Of a DNA stretch of 29,118 nt, positions 14,939-20,822 are shown one piece after another. Below the pieces are notes generated by a model that saw only the letters and a program-made list of their open reading frames with translations, was not told where the DNA came from and did no database searches. Position 1 is the first letter of the stretch; every line of letters starts with the position of its first letter. Source of the stretch: a virus; the IMG/VR virus record IMGVR_UViG_3300035438_000853, positions 1 to 29,118 of that record, one strand, 5' to 3'. The position numbers were made by a program, and so were the translations under genes.

Positions 14939-15633
14939 GCGCTGGCCTCCGACTCGTAGTCGAGATCGAGCACCGGGCCCGCCGCGTCGTACAGCGCCGC
15001 CGTCGCCCGGACGTCTTGCAGGCAATACCCCGCAATCTCGTGAAACTCGCCGCGCGCAAACATCGGCCAGACGCTCGCGCCTGACATTCCTTCCGTTTTG
15101 CCGCCAAGCCCGAACGCCTCCGCCCACTCGTTCAGCCCTTCGCCGCGCACCGGCGCCTCCCAGTTCGTGAGCATCGCTTTGACGTCGCAGTGCGGGTGCG
15201 TCTGGTACTTTCGGAACCACGCGCGCACCGTCGACGGCCGGATCGGGACCGGCACCCTGAGCAACAGCGACCGGATCAGCAAGAACCGAAGATCCCACGA
15301 CCCGTTCCACGTCACCACCCGCCCGTCGGCATCCGCGAGCACTTCCCATACCTGCGCCAGCATCCGCGCCTCGCGCAGCTCCGTCTTGGCCATGATGACC
15401 TGCTCCGACGGCCCCACCTTGAGCCCGACACAGAACACGCGGCCGATCCGCGGGTTGAGCGAGCACGCCTTCACGCGATCACCACGCCACGCCGTCACGT
15501 CCGCGTCGCGCCACTTGGCGATTGCGTCGTCGGTTTTGTAGTTGGCCGGTGGCGTCCGATCAAGCGCCGGGTACGGCGTCTCGAGCGACGCGATCAGCGG
15601 CACCGTCTCGATGTCCAGCACGACCGGCGCCAT
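14935..15633 (-). CDS. DEDDy-type 3'-5' exonuclease, 232 aa
   Basis: The DnaQ/RNase H-like exonuclease motifs are complete: ExoI VVLDIET with Asp7 and Glu9, ExoII VVTWNGSWDLRFLL with Asp114, and ExoIII GYCLQDVRATAALYD with Tyr203-x3-Asp207. This matches the predicted PolB-like exonuclease families that stand alone in phages. There is no polymerase domain, so it would act separately in replication, recombination or repair, removing nucleotides from 3' ends with two metal ions. The ATG overlaps the 46-codon gene stop as TAATG. It is the second gene of the P1 transcript. Confidence 0.85.
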   Translation of the reverse strand: MAPVVLDIETVPLIASLETPYPALDRTPPANYKTDDAIAKWRDADVTAWRGDRVKACSLNPRIGRVFCVGLKVGPSEQVIMAKTELREARMLAQVWEVLADADGRVVTWNGSWDLRFLLIRSLLLRVPVPIRPSTVRAWFRKYQTHPHCDVKAMLTNWEAPVRGEGLNEWAEAFGLGGKTEGMSGASVWPMFARGEFHEIAGYCLQDVRATAALYDAAGPVLDLDYESEASA

Positions 15634-15773
15634 TAGCGCGCCCTCACGATCAGCGCTCGGACCGCCGACGCCATCATATAGATGCAGGCGCCCGCCACCA
15701 TCACCGCCAGAGTCTGCCGGATCGCGTCCGCCAGGACTGCCCGGACCGCGCTGTCGTTCAGTAACTCAACCAT
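15633..15773 (-). CDS. Small membrane protein (46 aa), first gene of the P1 operon
   Basis: Starts MVELLNDSAVRAVLADAIRQ and contains one probable membrane helix, TLAVMVAGACIYMMASAV, ending RALIVRAR (positive-inside tail). A GGAG Shine-Dalgarno sequence lies in a GGAGATACGAC leader directly before the ATG; nearly the same leader precedes the gene at 20019-20204. The TAA overlaps the exonuclease ATG (TAATG). Promoter P1 and its hairpin lie 28-80 bases upstream. An early inner-membrane protein is possible; function unknown. Confidence 0.7.
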   Translation of the reverse strand: MVELLNDSAVRAVLADAIRQTLAVMVAGACIYMMASAVRALIVRAR

Positions 15774-15801: not shown

Positions 15802-15821
15802 GCAGCCGCGGCTACGGCTGC
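15802..15821 (-). promoter_or_regulatory. P1 leader hairpin with TAGCCG loop
   Basis: A perfect 7-bp stem (GCAGCCG with CGGCTGC) encloses the hexamer TAGCCG. It starts 6 bases after the P1 -10 box, so at the predicted transcription start, and ends 28 bases before the ATG. The same loop closes different stems at P2 and P3. A TGTTTTCC run follows on the minus strand, so it might also act as a weak terminator or attenuator for transcripts arriving from P3. Confidence 0.75.
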
Positions 15822-15825
15822 CCCT

Positions 15826-16467
15826 TTAAACTACGTCATCCGGGTTAACTGTCAAGGGAGACTTTGCCACCGGCAAGCCGAGCGCCCGCCGCCGGATCGG
15901 ATGTATCCACGGCTCGGCCTGCTCTTTGTCTGCTCGATGTGGCCGCACCGTCTTTTTGCGCGGCTCGTGCGTGACCGCGCCCACCGTGTACGCTGTGATC
16001 TGCCGCTCGCCCACCATCACATACGATCGGCCCAGCTTGTGCGTGTTCGCCAGATCGCCGCACGCCGTCCGAAGGCTTTTCGGCGGGACGTGCGGCAGCA
16101 GCTCGGCGAGCTTCGCCGTCGTCAGCGGCCCGTGCTGGTGTATCGCGGCCAGAATTGCCGCCCCAATCGTTTCCTTTTTCTTGGCCGGCGCCGGATCGTG
16201 ACGGCATTGATCGATCGGCGTCCACTGACTTCTCGAGCCCTTCATACCTGGCGAACGCGCCGTCGCGACGGCCGCGACCGTGCCCTCCTCGATGACGGCG
16301 CCGCGCGGCACATTGCGTCCGGCTGCGATCTGACGGAACCGCTGGTCGACCGCGTCCCAGCTCGCCAGCACTTCCCCCCCGGTGACCTTCCGGACCAGAT
16401 ACTGCTCATCGTGGACCAGCGTAATGACCCGACGGTCGCGATACGTCGCGTAATCCCGATCCGTCAT
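15826..16467 (-). CDS. Winged-helix-like DNA-binding protein (213 aa)
   Basis: Residues 100-165 (KKKETIGAAILAAIHQHGPL, TTAKLAELLPHVPPKSLRTACGDLANTHKLGR, then SYVMVGERQITAYTVG) have the helix-helix-recognition-helix-hairpin order of a winged-helix domain. The N-terminal 60 residues (DYATYRDRRVITLVHDEQYLVRKVTGG) look beta-rich. The C-terminus is basic (RKKTVRPHRADKEQ). It starts with ATGA coupling and is the last gene of the P3 block; its final codons contain promoter P1. It could be a transcription regulator of the phage, but the target is unknown. Confidence 0.7.
   Translation of the reverse strand: MTDRDYATYRDRRVITLVHDEQYLVRKVTGGEVLASWDAVDQRFRQIAAGRNVPRGAVIEEGTVAAVATARSPGMKGSRSQWTPIDQCRHDPAPAKKKETIGAAILAAIHQHGPLTTAKLAELLPHVPPKSLRTACGDLANTHKLGRSYVMVGERQITAYTVGAVTHEPRKKTVRPHRADKEQAEPWIHPIRRRALGLPVAKSPLTVNPDDVV
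15828..15855 (-). promoter_or_regulatory. Promoter P1
   Basis: A perfect -35 TTGACA (15855-15850), a 16-base spacer and the -10 TAGTTT (15833-15828) drive leftward transcription into the 46-codon gene and exonuclease. The -10 overlaps the TAA stop of the upstream winged-helix gene. TTGACAGTT is shared exactly with P2. Confidence 0.75.
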
Positions 16468-16706
16468 TCGCCTAGCTCCGCCTTCAACCGGCGGACCGCC
16501 GCGTTAAAGATCTTGAGGATCACCGCCTCCGTCTCCGTCGCGTACGCCGCCGCCGTTTTAATGCGCGGCTTGTAAATCTCCGCGTCGCGTGCGTTCCGCG
16601 ACGCTAAGATCCTGAGGGCGCCCTCGTCCTTGGCGTGCCGGTGCAGCGCCGCCGCGGCCTCGATGATCTCTTGCCGCATCTTGTGGACCGTCCGTTCGCT
16701 GGTCAT
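16464..16706 (-). CDS. Small helical protein (80 aa), unknown
   Basis: Begins MTSERTVHKMRQEIIEAAAALHRHAKDEG and is almost wholly helical and basic. It is coupled by ATGA to the HNH gene before it and to the winged-helix gene after it. No family recognised. Confidence 0.65.
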   Translation of the reverse strand: MTSERTVHKMRQEIIEAAAALHRHAKDEGALRILASRNARDAEIYKPRIKTAAAYATETEAVILKIFNAAVRRLKAELGE

Positions 16707-17551
16707 ACGCCCTGCCCGGTAAGTGTGCGTTTCTTGGTAATCGTGTGCGACAGCTTGGCGACCGCAAGTATTACCGGCTTCAGCTCGGCCGGCGCCGCGT
16801 CATACCCGAGCCGCTTGCCGCGCCCGCCGTTGAGTTGCGGCAAGATCGCCCGCGGGATGAGCTGCCAGTTTTCCACATTGGTATTGAGCCGGTTGCCGTC
16901 GATGCTTTTGAGGCATTGGTCCGACGGCACCGGCCCGTGGATCGCTTCCCAGTTCAGCACGTGCGTCAACTTCCAATTCACGGTCCACGGCACGTGCCGT
17001 ATGTCGCTCACCTTCGTAAACGTGTACTGCCCGGCCACGCGCTCGAATCCGATCGGCTTGTGATTCCAGCCGCCTTGACCTTTCACGAACTGCGTTTCGG
17101 CCATCCGCCCGGGGGCCCACCCCTTCGGATGCCTCCGCCCCGTATTGTGTGACGGCTCGCCGCGCCGAAAGTAGGTGCGCGCCCCAATGTCCGTGCCCGG
17201 CTGCATTCGGCCCGACGCCGCCGTCGCCAAGTACGCCGCGCTCTTCGCCAGCCCGAGCAACCGCGCGCGATGCGTGACCGACCCGGGCGACCGATTTAGC
17301 ACGGCCGCGAGCTGCGCCGTCGGCGTCTCCGCGAACCGCGCCAGCAGCACGGCGTCCTCCGCGGCCGTATACGTCGTACGTGCTGTATTCCACCGCTGCC
17401 GCTTGCACAGCGCGGTAATGTGCTCGACCCGCACGTCGTGCCGGCCAAACGCCAGAACAAACGCCGCGCGGATCTCGGCGCGCGGCCGGTCGCGCCGGGA
17501 TTCAATAAAGGCCAGCTCGGCCTCGCTGTACGTAATGCGCGCGCCTTTCAT
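16703..17551 (-). CDS. HNH endonuclease-like protein with Myb-like DNA-binding region (282 aa)
   Basis: Residues 1-55 (ITYSEAELAFIESRRDRPRAE; HITALCKRQRW) and 60-105 (YTAAEDAVLLARFAETPTAQ; RSPGSVTHRARLLGL) are two helix-turn-helix or Myb/SANT-like units. The C-terminal half carries the phage HNH layout: W-x2-LTHVLNWEAIHGPVPSDQCLKSIDGNRLNTNVENWQLIPRAILPQLNGGRG. The position usually held by His before DGN is Lys-Ser-Ile, as in a subfamily I recall with LKCLDGN, so catalysis needs testing. Phage HNH proteins nick or cut DNA and may act as homing endonucleases or in packaging. It is ATGA-coupled on both sides in the P3 operon. Confidence 0.8.
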   Translation of the reverse strand: MKGARITYSEAELAFIESRRDRPRAEIRAAFVLAFGRHDVRVEHITALCKRQRWNTARTTYTAAEDAVLLARFAETPTAQLAAVLNRSPGSVTHRARLLGLAKSAAYLATAASGRMQPGTDIGARTYFRRGEPSHNTGRRHPKGWAPGRMAETQFVKGQGGWNHKPIGFERVAGQYTFTKVSDIRHVPWTVNWKLTHVLNWEAIHGPVPSDQCLKSIDGNRLNTNVENWQLIPRAILPQLNGGRGKRLGYDAAPAELKPVILAVAKLSHTITKKRTLTGQGV

Positions 17552-17799
17552 GCCGCCGATCCGGCCGACAACGCCATCGTTGACGGGAGCGCCTTGAGCA
17601 TCCCGCCGCCGTGCTCGGCGACCAACTTTGCCCCCTGCAATTGCAGCGCCGCCGTCTCGACGATGCGGTCCGCCACTTGCACCACCGACGTCGATCGGCT
17701 GATCTCCTGCGCCAGCTCGTCGCCCGTGAGCGACTCGTCGGTGAGCCGCTCGAGCTGCGCAAAGAGAATGTCGTTCAAGTCCGTTAATCGATTTTTCAC
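17548..17799 (-). CDS. Phage protein of a widespread small unknown family (83 aa)
   Basis: The GTG at 17799 overlaps the preceding TGA (GTGA), with GAGGA 6-9 bases upstream, and gives MKNRLTDLNDILFAQLERLTDESLTGDELAQEISRS. Patterns like LNDxLFAQLERLxDExLxGxxLxxEIxRxxAVxxVAxxIIxNAxLxL are frequent in phages and annotated as hypothetical. All helical, no cysteines or membrane segment. The frame extends further 5' but that part overlaps the 27-codon gene. Confidence 0.75.
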   Translation of the reverse strand: MKNRLTDLNDILFAQLERLTDESLTGDELAQEISRSTSVVQVADRIVETAALQLQGAKLVAEHGGGMLKALPSTMALSAGSAA

Positions 17800-17879
17800 G
17801 CGTCGTCCTCCTCGTCCTCGGCGCCGTCCCACTGGAACGGCTCGAGCTGAATCCCCGTATGCCGGTCCTCCCACGTCAT
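17796..17879 (-). CDS. 27-codon truncated duplicate of the gene at 18316-18513
   Basis: Reads MTWEDRHTGIQLEPFQWDG and continues with AEDEEDDA. The core WEDRHTG(I/M)QLEPF is repeated in the 65-residue protein at 18316-18513, and the DNA of the shared part is 37/40 identical. The ATG overlaps the Myb-like gene's stop (ATGA) and its TGA overlaps the next GTG (GTGA), so it can be translated although it lacks the N-terminal half. It may be a remnant kept mainly to preserve coupling. Confidence 0.5.
   Translation of the reverse strand: MTWEDRHTGIQLEPFQWDGAEDEEDDA
17836..17875. repeat. 40-bp direct repeat, left copy
   Basis: Matches 18371-18410 at 37 of 40 positions. The two copies bracket the AT-richer Myb-like gene and code the same WEDRHTGxQLEPF peptide in flanking genes. 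Confidence 0.9.
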
Positions 17880-18322
17880 GCGCGCTTTCCGTCCCGAGCC
17901 CTTTGCGCGCTTTGCGTTTGGAGCTCTGCCATAAACTGCGGATGTTTTTTTAGCTTTAACTTCGATGCTTGTGTTGCAATGCCGCCAATCGGCCGGTTAA
18001 TCACTATTGATAAAGCTCTAATGGTTGTGGTTGGATAGAGTTCTCGAAGCATCTTGAGTTCGAGCTCTGTCCATTTTGACACGGACACCCGAGTCAATTT
18101 TAATTTTTTGGCGCGCTGCTGAACTGATACTTCAGAGCGCCCCAATTTTTTAGCAATGGTCTTGCACCGCACTTTGCCGTATTGCTTACAGAGTACGGCA
18201 TCTTCCGCTTTGGTCCATCGCCCTGATTTTTTAATCGTAGGCAATGGTAACCGCTCGTTTTTGCGTTGCGTGAACACGCTGGTAAGCGCGCCCCAGAATC
18301 GTAAAAGTATCCCATTTAGCAT
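17876..18322 (-). CDS. Two-repeat Myb/SANT-like DNA-binding protein, probable recent insertion (148 aa)
   Basis: Residues about 33-78 (RWTKAEDAVLCKQYGKVRCK; TIAKKLGRSEVSVQQRAKKLKL) and 82-127 (KWTELELKMLRELYPTTTIR; ALSIVINRPIGGIATQASKLKLKK) are two copies of a Trp-started helix-turn-helix unit, similar to the unit in the HNH protein at 16703-17551. The codons and the base composition are visibly AT-richer than every neighbour (many AAA, TTT, ATT, AAT). A GAGGAG Shine-Dalgarno sequence lies 5 bases before the ATG. The gene sits between 40-bp direct repeats. I infer acquisition by transfer; the function is DNA binding, with unknown target. Confidence 0.75.
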   Translation of the reverse strand: MLNGILLRFWGALTSVFTQRKNERLPLPTIKKSGRWTKAEDAVLCKQYGKVRCKTIAKKLGRSEVSVQQRAKKLKLTRVSVSKWTELELKMLRELYPTTTIRALSIVINRPIGGIATQASKLKLKKHPQFMAELQTQSAQRARDGKRA

Positions 18323-18513
18323 ATCGACTCCTCGTTGTGGTCCTTCTTGTCGTCCGCCGTTTTGGAATAAAACGGCTCAAGCTGCATCCCCGTGTGCCGG
18401 TCCTCCCACGCCTGCGCCTGCGCGTGCCGCTGGATGGCGCGAGCCTCCGCCCGCGCCTCCCGTTCGTCCGACTCCACGTCGGCCCACTCCGGCGCCCACA
18501 TCTCGTCATCCAT
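18316..18513 (-). CDS. Small acidic/charged phage protein (65 aa)
   Basis: Starts MDDEMWAPEWADVESDER through a TGATG overlap with the ERF gene stop. A charged helix (EREARAEARAIQRHAQAQA) leads into WEDRHTGMQLEPF and a Lys/Asp-rich tail KTADDKKDHNEESIC. The tail differs from the truncated copy at 17796-17879, and the last codons lie in the AT-richer insert, so the original C-terminus may have been replaced. No family recognised. Confidence 0.6.
   Translation of the reverse strand: MDDEMWAPEWADVESDEREARAEARAIQRHAQAQAWEDRHTGMQLEPFYSKTADDKKDHNEESIC
18371..18410. repeat. 40-bp direct repeat, right copy
   Basis: Partner of 17836-17875 (three mismatches). Equivalent positions are 535 bases apart. 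Confidence 0.9.
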
Positions 18514-19220
18514 CAGAACGGCACCCGCTCGTCATCGAACGCGTTGTCGTCGTCTCTGCCGCCCGCCTCGCGCGCCGCCGCGATCGCGTCGCACGCCGCG
18601 AGCACGTAGGCGTTTGCCTTCTCGACCGCCCACGCCCGGACCGCCGCCAGCCGCTCCGGCTCCATATCGACTAGCCGCTTGCCCTTGAGCTCGACCGTCT
18701 CGGCCTTCGCCAGGCTCATTGCGGCCGCCGGCGTCGCGGGTACGCGATCGTGCAACCGCTTGCCTGCCTCCGGCTCGCGCGCCACCTTCGCCGCGGCCGA
18801 CTCTGTCCGCTTCGGCGCCGACGCGCTGTTGCCGTCGTCGTCCTCCGCCGTGAGCCCCAGCATCGCCGACAGCCCGTAGCGCCGGCCGTAGCTAATTGCC
18901 GACCCCGCGCCCTGCGCCGTCGGCTTCTCGACCGGCACGACCACGATCGACGCCATCCACTCGCCAGACAAATGCAGGAGCCGCGTCTCGACCGCGATCC
19001 CGACCACCCGCCCGCCGTCCGTCTCCGGATGGAGCACGCCCTGCATGACCGCCAGCCCGTGCGCCGCGAGCACCGGCCGCACCTGCTCCATGATCGCGTC
19101 CAGCGTTGCGTACTTATTCCGGAACGCCGGGTTTGTGGCGTCCTTGGTGACCGGCCCAAGATCCGCTGCGGCTTTGACGATCGCCGGCGCGATCAGCCCA
19201 ATCGACTCGCTGCTTTTCAT
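18513..19220 (-). CDS. erf: ERF-family single-strand annealing protein, 235 aa
   Basis: The ATGA start at 19220 gives MKSSESIGLIAPAIVKAAADLGPV. The ERF core is recognisable: NPAFRNKYATLDAIMEQVRPVLAAHGLAVMQGV, followed by TRLLHLSGEWMAS and the highly typical AQGAGSAISYGRRYGLSAMLGLTAEDDDGN. A linker rich in Ala and charged residues leads to an acidic end, DDDNAFDDERVPF, which resembles the protein-binding tip of bacterial SSB. ERF proteins anneal complementary single strands for recombination and genome circularisation. It lies in the P3 operon upstream of the HNH and Myb-like genes; no SSB or RecT is seen in the window. Confidence 0.9.
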   Translation of the reverse strand: MKSSESIGLIAPAIVKAAADLGPVTKDATNPAFRNKYATLDAIMEQVRPVLAAHGLAVMQGVLHPETDGGRVVGIAVETRLLHLSGEWMASIVVVPVEKPTAQGAGSAISYGRRYGLSAMLGLTAEDDDGNSASAPKRTESAAAKVAREPEAGKRLHDRVPATPAAAMSLAKAETVELKGKRLVDMEPERLAAVRAWAVEKANAYVLAACDAIAAAREAGGRDDDNAFDDERVPF

Positions 19221-19570
19221 CGTCCGGCCTCCGTCCACGGTAGCGTGTCCGACAGATCCAGCGCGAGCAGGATGGCCGCGCGGTGGTCAAGCCCGTCCGT
19301 CGCGTCACGCGCGATATGCAGATCCTGCCGCACGTGGTTGAGGCTGGCCTCCAGCTTGGTCAGCAGATTCCGCGCCGCGCGCAGATCCGCAGACCAGACC
19401 GCGTCCGTATTGCCGAGCGCCTCAATCTGCGCCGTGACGGCCGCGTCCGCGTCATCGATGGCTCGGAAACACGCCTCAGAGTGCGCGAACAACTGATCCA
19501 GTGTATCCCAGATCTTGACGCAATAACGCCGCGTCATGTGACCGGCCGCGAGCACTTGGTCGCTGGTCAT
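19217..19570 (-). CDS. Helical phage protein (117 aa), unknown
   Basis: The ATGA start at 19570 gives MTSDQVLAAGHMTRRYCVKIWDTLDQLF. The chain is helical throughout, with a basic/acidic pattern suggesting a helical bundle (DLRAARNLLTKLEASLNHVRQDLHIARD). The longer upstream extension of this frame overlaps the preceding gene and is not used. It sits directly before erf, so an accessory role in recombination is possible, but there is no motif. Confidence 0.65.
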   Translation of the reverse strand: MTSDQVLAAGHMTRRYCVKIWDTLDQLFAHSEACFRAIDDADAAVTAQIEALGNTDAVWSADLRAARNLLTKLEASLNHVRQDLHIARDATDGLDHRAAILLALDLSDTLPWTEAGR

Positions 19571-19764
19571 CGTCCGCCCTCCCGCAGCGCCGAGTCCTCG
19601 GCCTTCCGGTATTGGGCCTCCTCCTCGATGATCCGCGCGAGCGTCACCAGCGACGCCGGCATGTCCGCCTCGGCGTCCCACCGCGCCATCATGTCGCGTG
19701 CCTCCGCGAGCTGCGCGTCCGAATACCGCGCCACGATCCCCACCAGGCTGTCTAGGCTATCCAT
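19567..19764 (-). CDS. Small helical protein (65 aa), first gene of the P3 operon
   Basis: Starts MDSLDSLVGIVARYSDAQLAEARDMMARW with a GGGGAG Shine-Dalgarno sequence 5 bases before the ATG. Charged and helical, no cysteines, no membrane segment. Promoter P3 and its TAGCCG hairpin lie 25-84 bases upstream. Function unknown. Confidence 0.7.
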   Translation of the reverse strand: MDSLDSLVGIVARYSDAQLAEARDMMARWDAEADMPASLVTLARIIEEEAQYRKAEDSALREGGR

Positions 19765-19789
19765 TGTCTCCCCTCAGGTCCGCGTGAAA

Positions 19790-19815
19790 TCGAGCGGCAC
19801 GGCTATGCCGCTCGA
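19790..19815 (-). promoter_or_regulatory. P3 leader hairpin with TAGCCG loop
   Basis: A perfect 10-bp stem, arms TCGAGCGGCA and TGCCGCTCGA, encloses TAGCCG. It begins 5 bases after the P3 -10 box and ends 25 bases before the ATG. This is the strongest of the three TAGCCG hairpins. Confidence 0.85.
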
Positions 19816-19820
19816 GCCCT

Positions 19821-19848
19821 AAAGTACAACCAACCTGCTACGTGTCAA
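19821..19848 (-). promoter_or_regulatory. Promoter P3
   Basis: A perfect -35 TTGACA (19848-19843), a 16-base spacer and TACTTT (19826-19821). The -35 overlaps the TGA of the 56-codon gene upstream. It drives the erf/HNH block leftward. Confidence 0.75.
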
Positions 19849-20015
19849 GACTGTTGCGCAACCTCGGACGCTTTTAGCGCGCGAACGTGCGCCGCCGACA
19901 TCGCGCTGTGATACAACGCGACGTCGACAACATCTTGCGCCGACCGGAGGAAGATCGCGCGCAGCCGCGCGGAATCTTTAACGTACTGTTCGTGTGCGGT
20001 TGCGGTCATCGTCAT
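19845..20015 (-). CDS. Small phage protein (56 aa), second gene of the P2 operon
   Basis: Starts MTMTATAHEQYVKDSARLR. A strong GGAGG Shine-Dalgarno sequence, 8 bases before the ATG, is part of the end of the upstream gene (three bases between its TAA and this ATG). Helical, no cysteines (AIFLRSAQDVVDVALYHSAMSAAHVRALKASEV). Its TGA is part of the P3 -35 box. A second in-frame ATG two codons in is equally possible. Function unknown; early-gene position. Confidence 0.7.
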   Translation of the reverse strand: MTMTATAHEQYVKDSARLRAIFLRSAQDVVDVALYHSAMSAAHVRALKASEVAQQS

Positions 20016-20018
20016 AGC

Positions 20019-20204
20019 TTACGCCTCCACGTTTGCGGAGGCGATCAGCACCGCGACGGCGCACTTGGGGCACTCGACCCGCGTTGCGCCCTGATAAAAC
20101 GCCGCGAATCCCGCCCACCGCTCGCACGCCGTGCGGTAATAGCCGCCGATCGTGCGGCGGTCGTCCGTCGGGTGCGGCTGGTGGTACATCTTCGTCTTGG
20201 TCAT
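20019..20204 (-). CDS. Small Cys-containing protein (61 aa), first gene of the P2 operon
   Basis: Starts MTKTKMYHQPHPTDDRRTIG after a GGAGATACGACG leader that nearly duplicates the one before the P1 gene. It contains one Cys in YYRTACERW and a CPKC pair in VECPKCAVAVLIA, which could make half of a zinc site or a small zinc ribbon. The upstream extension of this frame runs into promoter P2 and is not coding. As the first gene after the strongest-looking promoter it is probably expressed early; host-takeover function would be speculation. Confidence 0.7.
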   Translation of the reverse strand: MTKTKMYHQPHPTDDRRTIGGYYRTACERWAGFAAFYQGATRVECPKCAVAVLIASANVEA

Positions 20205-20230
20205 CGTCGTATCTCCGTCCGGTGGGTTCT

Positions 20231-20252
20231 GTGCGCGCCGGCTAGCGCTCAC
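20231..20252 (-). promoter_or_regulatory. P2 leader hairpin with TAGCCG loop
   Basis: Stem GTG-A-GCGC with GCGC-G-CAC (one A-G mismatch) around TAGCCG. It begins 6 bases after the P2 -10 and ends 26 bases before the ATG, as at P1 and P3. Confidence 0.7.
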
Positions 20253-20258
20253 CCCACA

Positions 20259-20287
20259 ACAGTACCATCGGCTCCATGAACTGTCAA
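20259..20287 (-). promoter_or_regulatory. Promoter P2 with upstream A-tract
   Basis: A perfect -35 TTGACA (20287-20282), a 17-base spacer and TACTGT (20264-20259). On the minus strand a run of ten A (20316-20307) and AGAAAGCGAAAG lie just upstream, as expected of an UP element that raises promoter strength. It drives the two small early genes and perhaps the P3 block by readthrough. Confidence 0.7.
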
Positions 20288-20699: not shown

Positions 20700-20718
20700 G
20701 CCCGAAAGCGCAAGAAAC

Positions 20719-20746
20719 AAAAAACCCCAGCCTGAGAGCCGGGGTT
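20719..20746 (-). terminator. Rho-independent terminator (end of late operon)
   Basis: On the minus strand, arms AACCCCGGC and GCTGGGGTT pair (one mismatch) around TCTCAG and run into TTTTTT then GTTTC. This is the only clear intrinsic terminator in the window and lies 115 bases after the holin-like gene, so it should end tail/lysis transcripts, and the candidate small RNA. Confidence 0.9.
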
Positions 20747-20822
20747 CTTCGCATGGCCGCCTTGCGGCGCCACTAGCCTTACGCGGACTGAGATCGGCCG
20801 GCCGCTTTCGCGCCGTCACCGA
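20719..20822 (-). ncRNA. Candidate phage small RNA (about 104 nt)
   Basis: A good promoter (20857-20829) predicts a start near 20822, and an intrinsic terminator lies about 100 bases later. Between them no open frame has a ribosome site. Instead there are two short hairpins with GNRA-type tetraloops: CGC-GAAA-GCG within 20800-20814, and TGGC/GCC paired around GCAA at 20754-20772 with one bulged G. This promoter, structured body and U-tract terminator layout is that of a bacterial or phage sRNA. It could instead be only the 3' end of the late mRNA. Confidence 0.4.

Follow-up and report, generated by a model that had tools for sequence, protein, structure and literature searches.

What does a short hairpin do when it recurs at several promoters of one virus, each time with another stem and always with the same loop? 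The question is raised by the viral contig IMGVR_UViG_3300035438_000853 from IMG/VR, analysed here over its whole length of 29,118 bases (the window). Three predicted promoters on its minus strand, P1, P2 and P3, are each followed by a hairpin with the loop UAGCCG. We give about an even chance to the following reading: the hairpin would be a 5′-terminal leader of early mRNAs that protects or insulates them, and a trans-acting factor would recognize its clade-specific loop.

Hairpins at three early promoters

The order of elements is alike at P1, P2 and P3: a sigma70-like −35/−10 promoter, the hairpin, a Shine-Dalgarno (SD) sequence and an ATG. Promoters were recognized as consensus matches, and transcription starts were predicted from them. 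Relatives of the virus, many of them fragments, were collected from IMG/VR by Erf, terminase and exonuclease queries, and are referred to by L numbers.

15828 to 15855, minus strand: P1 promoter, TTGACA-16-TAGTTT (from sequence; orthologous promoters in L002, L003, L097 and L098)
15802 to 15821, minus strand: P1 leader hairpin, GCAGCCG-UAGCCG-CGGCUGC, loop 15814-15809 (covariance model, 36.1 bits, E 5e-7)
20259 to 20287, minus strand: P2 promoter, TTGACA-17-TACTGT (from sequence)
20231 to 20252, minus strand: P2 leader hairpin, GUGAGCGC-UAGCCG-GCGCGCAC, one A·G mismatch, loop 20244-20239 (26.2 bits, E 1.6e-4)
19821 to 19848, minus strand: P3 promoter, TTGACA-16-TACTTT (from sequence)
19790 to 19815, minus strand: P3 leader hairpin, UCGAGCGGCA-UAGCCG-UGCCGCUCGA, loop 19805-19800 (covariance model, 32.6 bits)

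The coordinates, stems, loop and spacings given in a preliminary description of this DNA were reproduced, all on the minus strand. The gap between the −10 element and the hairpin is 6 nucleotides (nt) at P1 and P2 and 5 nt at P3. The hairpins end 28, 26 and 25 nt before the ATGs of P1 (15773), P2 (20204) and P3 (19764), respectively. At all three, the SD sequence is left outside the stem, in a leader of ~50 nt. Because the loop begins 13–15 nt past the −10 element in the copies described here (stem start ~5–9 nt past it, for predicted promoters), the beginning of the stem falls close to the expected +1. The P1 hairpin has a predicted folding energy of −16.3 kcal/mol, and an equally low value was reached by 2 of 1000 shuffles. 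An alternative drawing of the loop is an AGCC tetraloop closed by a U·G pair.

Plain abundance of TAGCCG was rejected as an explanation, as the hexamer is not enriched in the window (13 occurrences, 11.95 expected). A chance origin of the three hairpins was also rejected, by shuffling and by a hairpin census. Dinucleotide shuffles (n = 200) averaged 0.035 promoter hairpins, whatever the loop, compared with the three TAGCCG-loop ones of the window, and none of the 200 had two promoter hairpins with the same loop. In 735 kb of sequence (window and relatives), 397 TAGCCG sites were found, of which eight distinct ones form a hairpin whose stem runs for 6 base pairs (bp) or more without interruption. 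All eight are located at promoters of this kind, and equally good hairpins at random coding positions, which would have spoken against the element, were not encountered. The full covariance model reached E < 0.001 in the window only at P1, P2 and P3 (next best, E = 0.13), although it was built partly from these three and its E-values are rough.

Pairing and loop conservation in related viruses

Counting the window, the IMG/VR relatives yielded 13 distinct promoter copies of the UAGCCG-loop hairpin. A covariance model trained on ten of these then revealed a 14th copy, not seen before, in L114; this copy, too, has a promoter, an SD sequence and an ATG. The preliminary description had proposed such a search in related phages, and it did recover the element there. 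Additional model matches in L104 and L107 were discarded, being located in coding sequence and lacking promoters.

The loop is identical in 14 of 14 distinct copies, and the stems change in a coordinated manner. In an alignment of ten copies, two-sided changes were seen at six of the seven stem pairs. Its covariation score was 0.829; shuffles averaged 0.244, none of 500 reaching the observed score, and sliding the pairing partner gave no more than 0.203. Of the alignment cells, 95.7% pair, a percentage biased upward because the rows were chosen partly for possessing stems. A less biased comparison is offered by a single gene, the one behind P3: its leaders in the window, L003 and L006 have the UAGCCG loop on differing stems. 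The orthologous P3 leaders in L002, L003 and L006 all retain the loop, with the stem altered in L003 and L006. The stems contain G·U in four cells in the window clade and in three cells in a group of relatives with a guanine-plus-cytosine (GC) content of ~53%, and A·C is absent from true hairpins; this is as expected for RNA, the contrast resting on few independent events. Together, the comparisons support P1, P2 and P3 hairpins being one RNA-level element, maintained via pairing and not via stem sequence.

More distant relatives have hairpins at the predicted +1 as well, and no UAGCC leader loops were found in them. L104 and L107 have a CYAGA-loop hairpin ahead of a homologue of the P3 gene, and hairpins with other loops occur in L115, L116, L117 and L108/L110/L112. 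The leaders of L117, L012 and L013 (for example, L117 positions 8500, 10831 and 11277) have common arms, TGGTGTCAGC/GCTGGCACCA, and variable loops, the reverse of the window pattern. The GC-53% group has a conserved GGAC-type loop, on stems that change together (TGTGAT/ATCAC, TGTGGT/ACCAC, TGTAGT/GCTACA). Since clades conserve different loops or arms at +1, structure at the predicted start is general, and its sequence-conserved part is clade-specific. We infer that all these hairpins may share one function.

In the GC-53% group (L120-L180, for example L140 at 9215), divergent promoters and an inverted repeat, TTGACA-N4/5-TGTCAA, overlap one another beside an apparent helix-turn-helix (HTH) gene. 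The GGAC-type hairpin is found on the mRNA side of these promoters.

A DNA operator overlapping +1 and bound by a phage repressor would sit in the usual position for repression, and the fixed arms and variable loop of L117 could also be obtained from a dimer operator. In the window clade, however, the arms change from promoter to promoter around a constant centre, which is the opposite of a dimer operator. The presence of G·U without A·C further suggests selection on the transcribed strand, if from few independent events. We regard an operator as very improbable, and the two-sided stem changes around a fixed loop agree with the earlier view that selection acts on RNA structure.

Nearly all genes in the window are oriented on the minus strand. 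Terminase, portal and head genes lie at 4.9–11 kb, and the early region, at ~15–20.3 kb, encodes an exonuclease-like protein, an HNH endonuclease and an Erf-like annealing protein. Endolysin and glycosyltransferase genes come after it. The genes directly behind the three leaders are small:

15633 to 15773, minus strand: gene after P1, 46-amino-acid protein MVELLNDSAVRAVL... (P1-position orthologs in L002, L003, L006 and L098)
20019 to 20204, minus strand: gene after P2, 61-amino-acid protein with a CPKC motif (similar proteins in L026 and L115)
19567 to 19764, minus strand: gene after P3, 65-amino-acid protein MDSLDSLVGIVARYSDAQLAEARDMM... (orthologs in L002, L003 and L006)

The leaders do not follow these genes. 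Relatives of the P2 protein are preceded by a UAGCCG leader in L026 and by another type in L115; at P2 of L002, an identical hairpin precedes an unrelated protein. The L104 and L107 proteins behind CYAGA loops appear, by eye, homologous to the P3 protein. Comparison of these loci shows that the leader travels with the promoter, independent of the downstream gene. The promoters of two noncoding transcripts, sRNA1 and a ~380-nt RNA, have no UAGCCG hairpin. In L098 (881-960), a P1-type hairpin is fused to a P3-type ribosome-binding region, a hybrid suggesting that leader modules have been swapped by recombination.

To determine how widespread the element is, the viral collection was scanned twice for the pattern of promoter, TAGCCG and GGAG. 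The matches listed contain at least 136 distinct promoter-like TAGCCG sites with GGAG, nine of which pair at six or more of seven positions. Seven of these nine belong to the window clade; the other two are in L191, which has no related terminase, and in L398. Both were rejected as outside copies, since ~1.7 such sites are predicted by chance (estimated from a pairing rate of 0.375). Among the matches listed, none is convincing beyond the window clade, and within the limits of this collection the element occurs in one uncultured clade only.

Possible roles of the leader

In the proposed mechanism, the stem-loop would begin no more than a few nt from the first base of the early mRNA and end 25–28 nt before the start codon, with the SD sequence free. 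The stem would hide the 5′ end, so that the message is protected or insulated, as in some bacterial mRNAs. Stabilization of mRNA by 5′ hairpins and their hindrance of RppH are established (PMC3997798). The invariant UAGCCG would be bound by a trans-acting factor, which could be an RNA or a protein of phage or host, and this factor would control the set of early messages jointly. Because several promoters in a genome carry the same unchanging loop, a recognizing factor probably exists. A search for an RNA-binding protein among the early genes (Pfam, PHROGs) returned only weak HTH/Myb-like or regulator-like matches.

Several points weigh against this proposal. A protective hairpin by itself requires no conserved loop. 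The transcription starts are predicted, and both protection and binding of the loop by a factor are proposed on sequence grounds. The bias in the pairing percentage counts here as well, and no close relatives that could indicate a host were found in GTDB genomes or cultured phages.

The first of these points bears on a plain 5′ stabilizer, in which only the stem would matter and the identical loop would be merely inherited or favoured by folding. The placement matches known stabilizers, and the relatives' promoters carry +1 hairpins with other loops. Yet the loop is unchanged in 14 copies whereas all seven stem pairs vary, and UAGCCG is not known as an extra-stable loop. We consider the plain form unlikely. 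Among the roles suggested in the preliminary description, 5′ stabilization is still the best fit, but stabilizing alone leaves the invariant loop unexplained.

An antitermination signal, put-like or nut-like, would modify RNA polymerase through the nascent RNA or a bound protein. The hairpin opens several early phage transcripts and would emerge from the polymerase ahead of the rest of the RNA, in a position recalling HK022 putL, just downstream of PL (PMC9378689). However, the ~50-nt leaders hold one hairpin and, on inspection, no boxA, compared with two stem-loops in the ~70-nt putRNA (PMC9378689). Between P1 and the contig end, intrinsic-terminator-like sites are weak and no more frequent than chance predicts (7, with 7.8 expected), in a census of the intrinsic type only. 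Antitermination is less likely because of the single hairpin, the missing boxA and the lack of convincing intrinsic terminators downstream of the promoters as far as the contig end; we hold it to be improbable, and the put-like and boxB-like roles proposed earlier were not borne out. A promoter-proximal attenuator was rejected: a few U residues follow the P1 stem in several phages, but not the P2 or L006 copies.

A candidate for the trans-acting factor is encoded close to P2, where two noncoding transcripts were predicted:

20717 to 20822, minus strand: sRNA1, ~105-nt noncoding transcript with promoter TTGACA-17-CATATT (20857-20829) and intrinsic terminator; a candidate partner only
20686 to 20297, minus strand: ~380-nt noncoding RNA with conserved promoter TTGCGC-17-TACTGT (20715-20687), between sRNA1 and P2

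The terminator at 20719 is upstream of P2 and closes sRNA1, a separate short transcript. Homologues of sRNA1 were found in L002, L003 and L006 by blastn and, beyond its reach, in L114 by position. The only heptamer common to the five clade homologues, L114 included, is AGGCUAG (20779-20773 in the window), and it contains GGCTA, the complement of the UAGCC loop. The loop could thus be a target of the phage's own sRNA1, with AGGCUAG kissing the UAGCC loops and the early mRNAs forming a regulon. In favour of this, sRNA1 is conserved and has a promoter and terminator of its own, and the probability of a conserved 5-nt complement for a random hexamer loop is 0.029. The match is post hoc, though, and its chance rises to 0.19 once the second noncoding RNA is counted. 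Moreover, GGC is partly paired in predicted folds, L115 retains GGCUAG although its leaders have no UAGCC loops, and the L104/L107 small RNAs do not match their own leader loops. The complementarity is suggestive, a lead and not a result, and we see pairing with sRNA1 as a long shot. The same low probability applies to an RNA-based early regulon, in which a phage small RNA would read a six-letter loop at the 5′ terminus of all early mRNAs while the stems drift.

In L006 (6657-6780), an extra promoter and a terminator-like hairpin lie upstream of sRNA1, which suggests a further small RNA in that phage. The ~380-nt RNA has homologues in L002, L003, L006, L104, L107, L110, L112, L114, L115, L116 and L117. 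In the 12 aligned sequences, 47 consensus pairs were found, with compensatory changes in 29, and 0 of 500 shuffles scored as high on any of the five measures. It had no Rfam match above threshold and no blastn match in cultured phages. Its presence beside P2 suggests heavy use of RNA elements by the lineage.

Control of early messages in phages is known mostly from proteins of a few cultured phages. That a hairpin at the predicted +1, its loop fixed within the clade, is found at several promoters of a genome makes a recognizing factor probable. If the functions of stem and loop are separate, the leader could be a compact tag for tuning mRNA life or expression.

Comparison with known systems

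The preliminary description knew of no element with this loop and placement, and our searches agree: nothing scored above the Rfam gathering threshold in the window or in eight related loci, and no description of it was found in searches of the open-licence literature. Several known systems share some of its features.

A nut site is defined by boxA plus a short hairpin with a GNRA-like pentaloop. The lambdoid boxB resembles our element in being a small conserved-loop hairpin on early transcripts. Here, however, the inspected leaders have no boxA, the loop is not GNRA-like, the stems are variable, the hairpin is at +1, and no N-like gene was recognized. HK022 putRNA likewise forms a structure where early phage transcripts begin, but it is ~70 nt long with two stem-loops (PMC9378689), as opposed to one short hairpin without clear terminator targets.

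In N4-type promoters the hairpin lies upstream of +1 and is used by a phage polymerase, whereas here it is downstream of a sigma70-like −10 element. A search for a single-subunit RNA polymerase gave no match, but neither did the control, hence the search is uninformative. Compared with a dimer DNA operator, the element has no conserved symmetric half-sites, and the window has three different stems.

The 5′ stabilizing stem-loops of the ompA/papA type resemble the element in its predicted placement, being mRNA-leader stem-loops at or very near the 5′ end with the SD sequence free. They differ in that here one invariant loop is found on several phage promoters with changing stems, and stabilization itself is a prediction.

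The start-associated sequences (SAS/ESAS) of cluster K mycobacteriophages are also repeated, subcluster-specific elements with inverted repeats ahead of phage start codons. In the ESAS, 17-bp arms are conserved around a spacer that varies, a 13-bp SAS is adjacent, and the arm changes do not support RNA pairing (PMC3203893). In the window clade, in contrast, the arms vary and covary, and the central hexamer is fixed.

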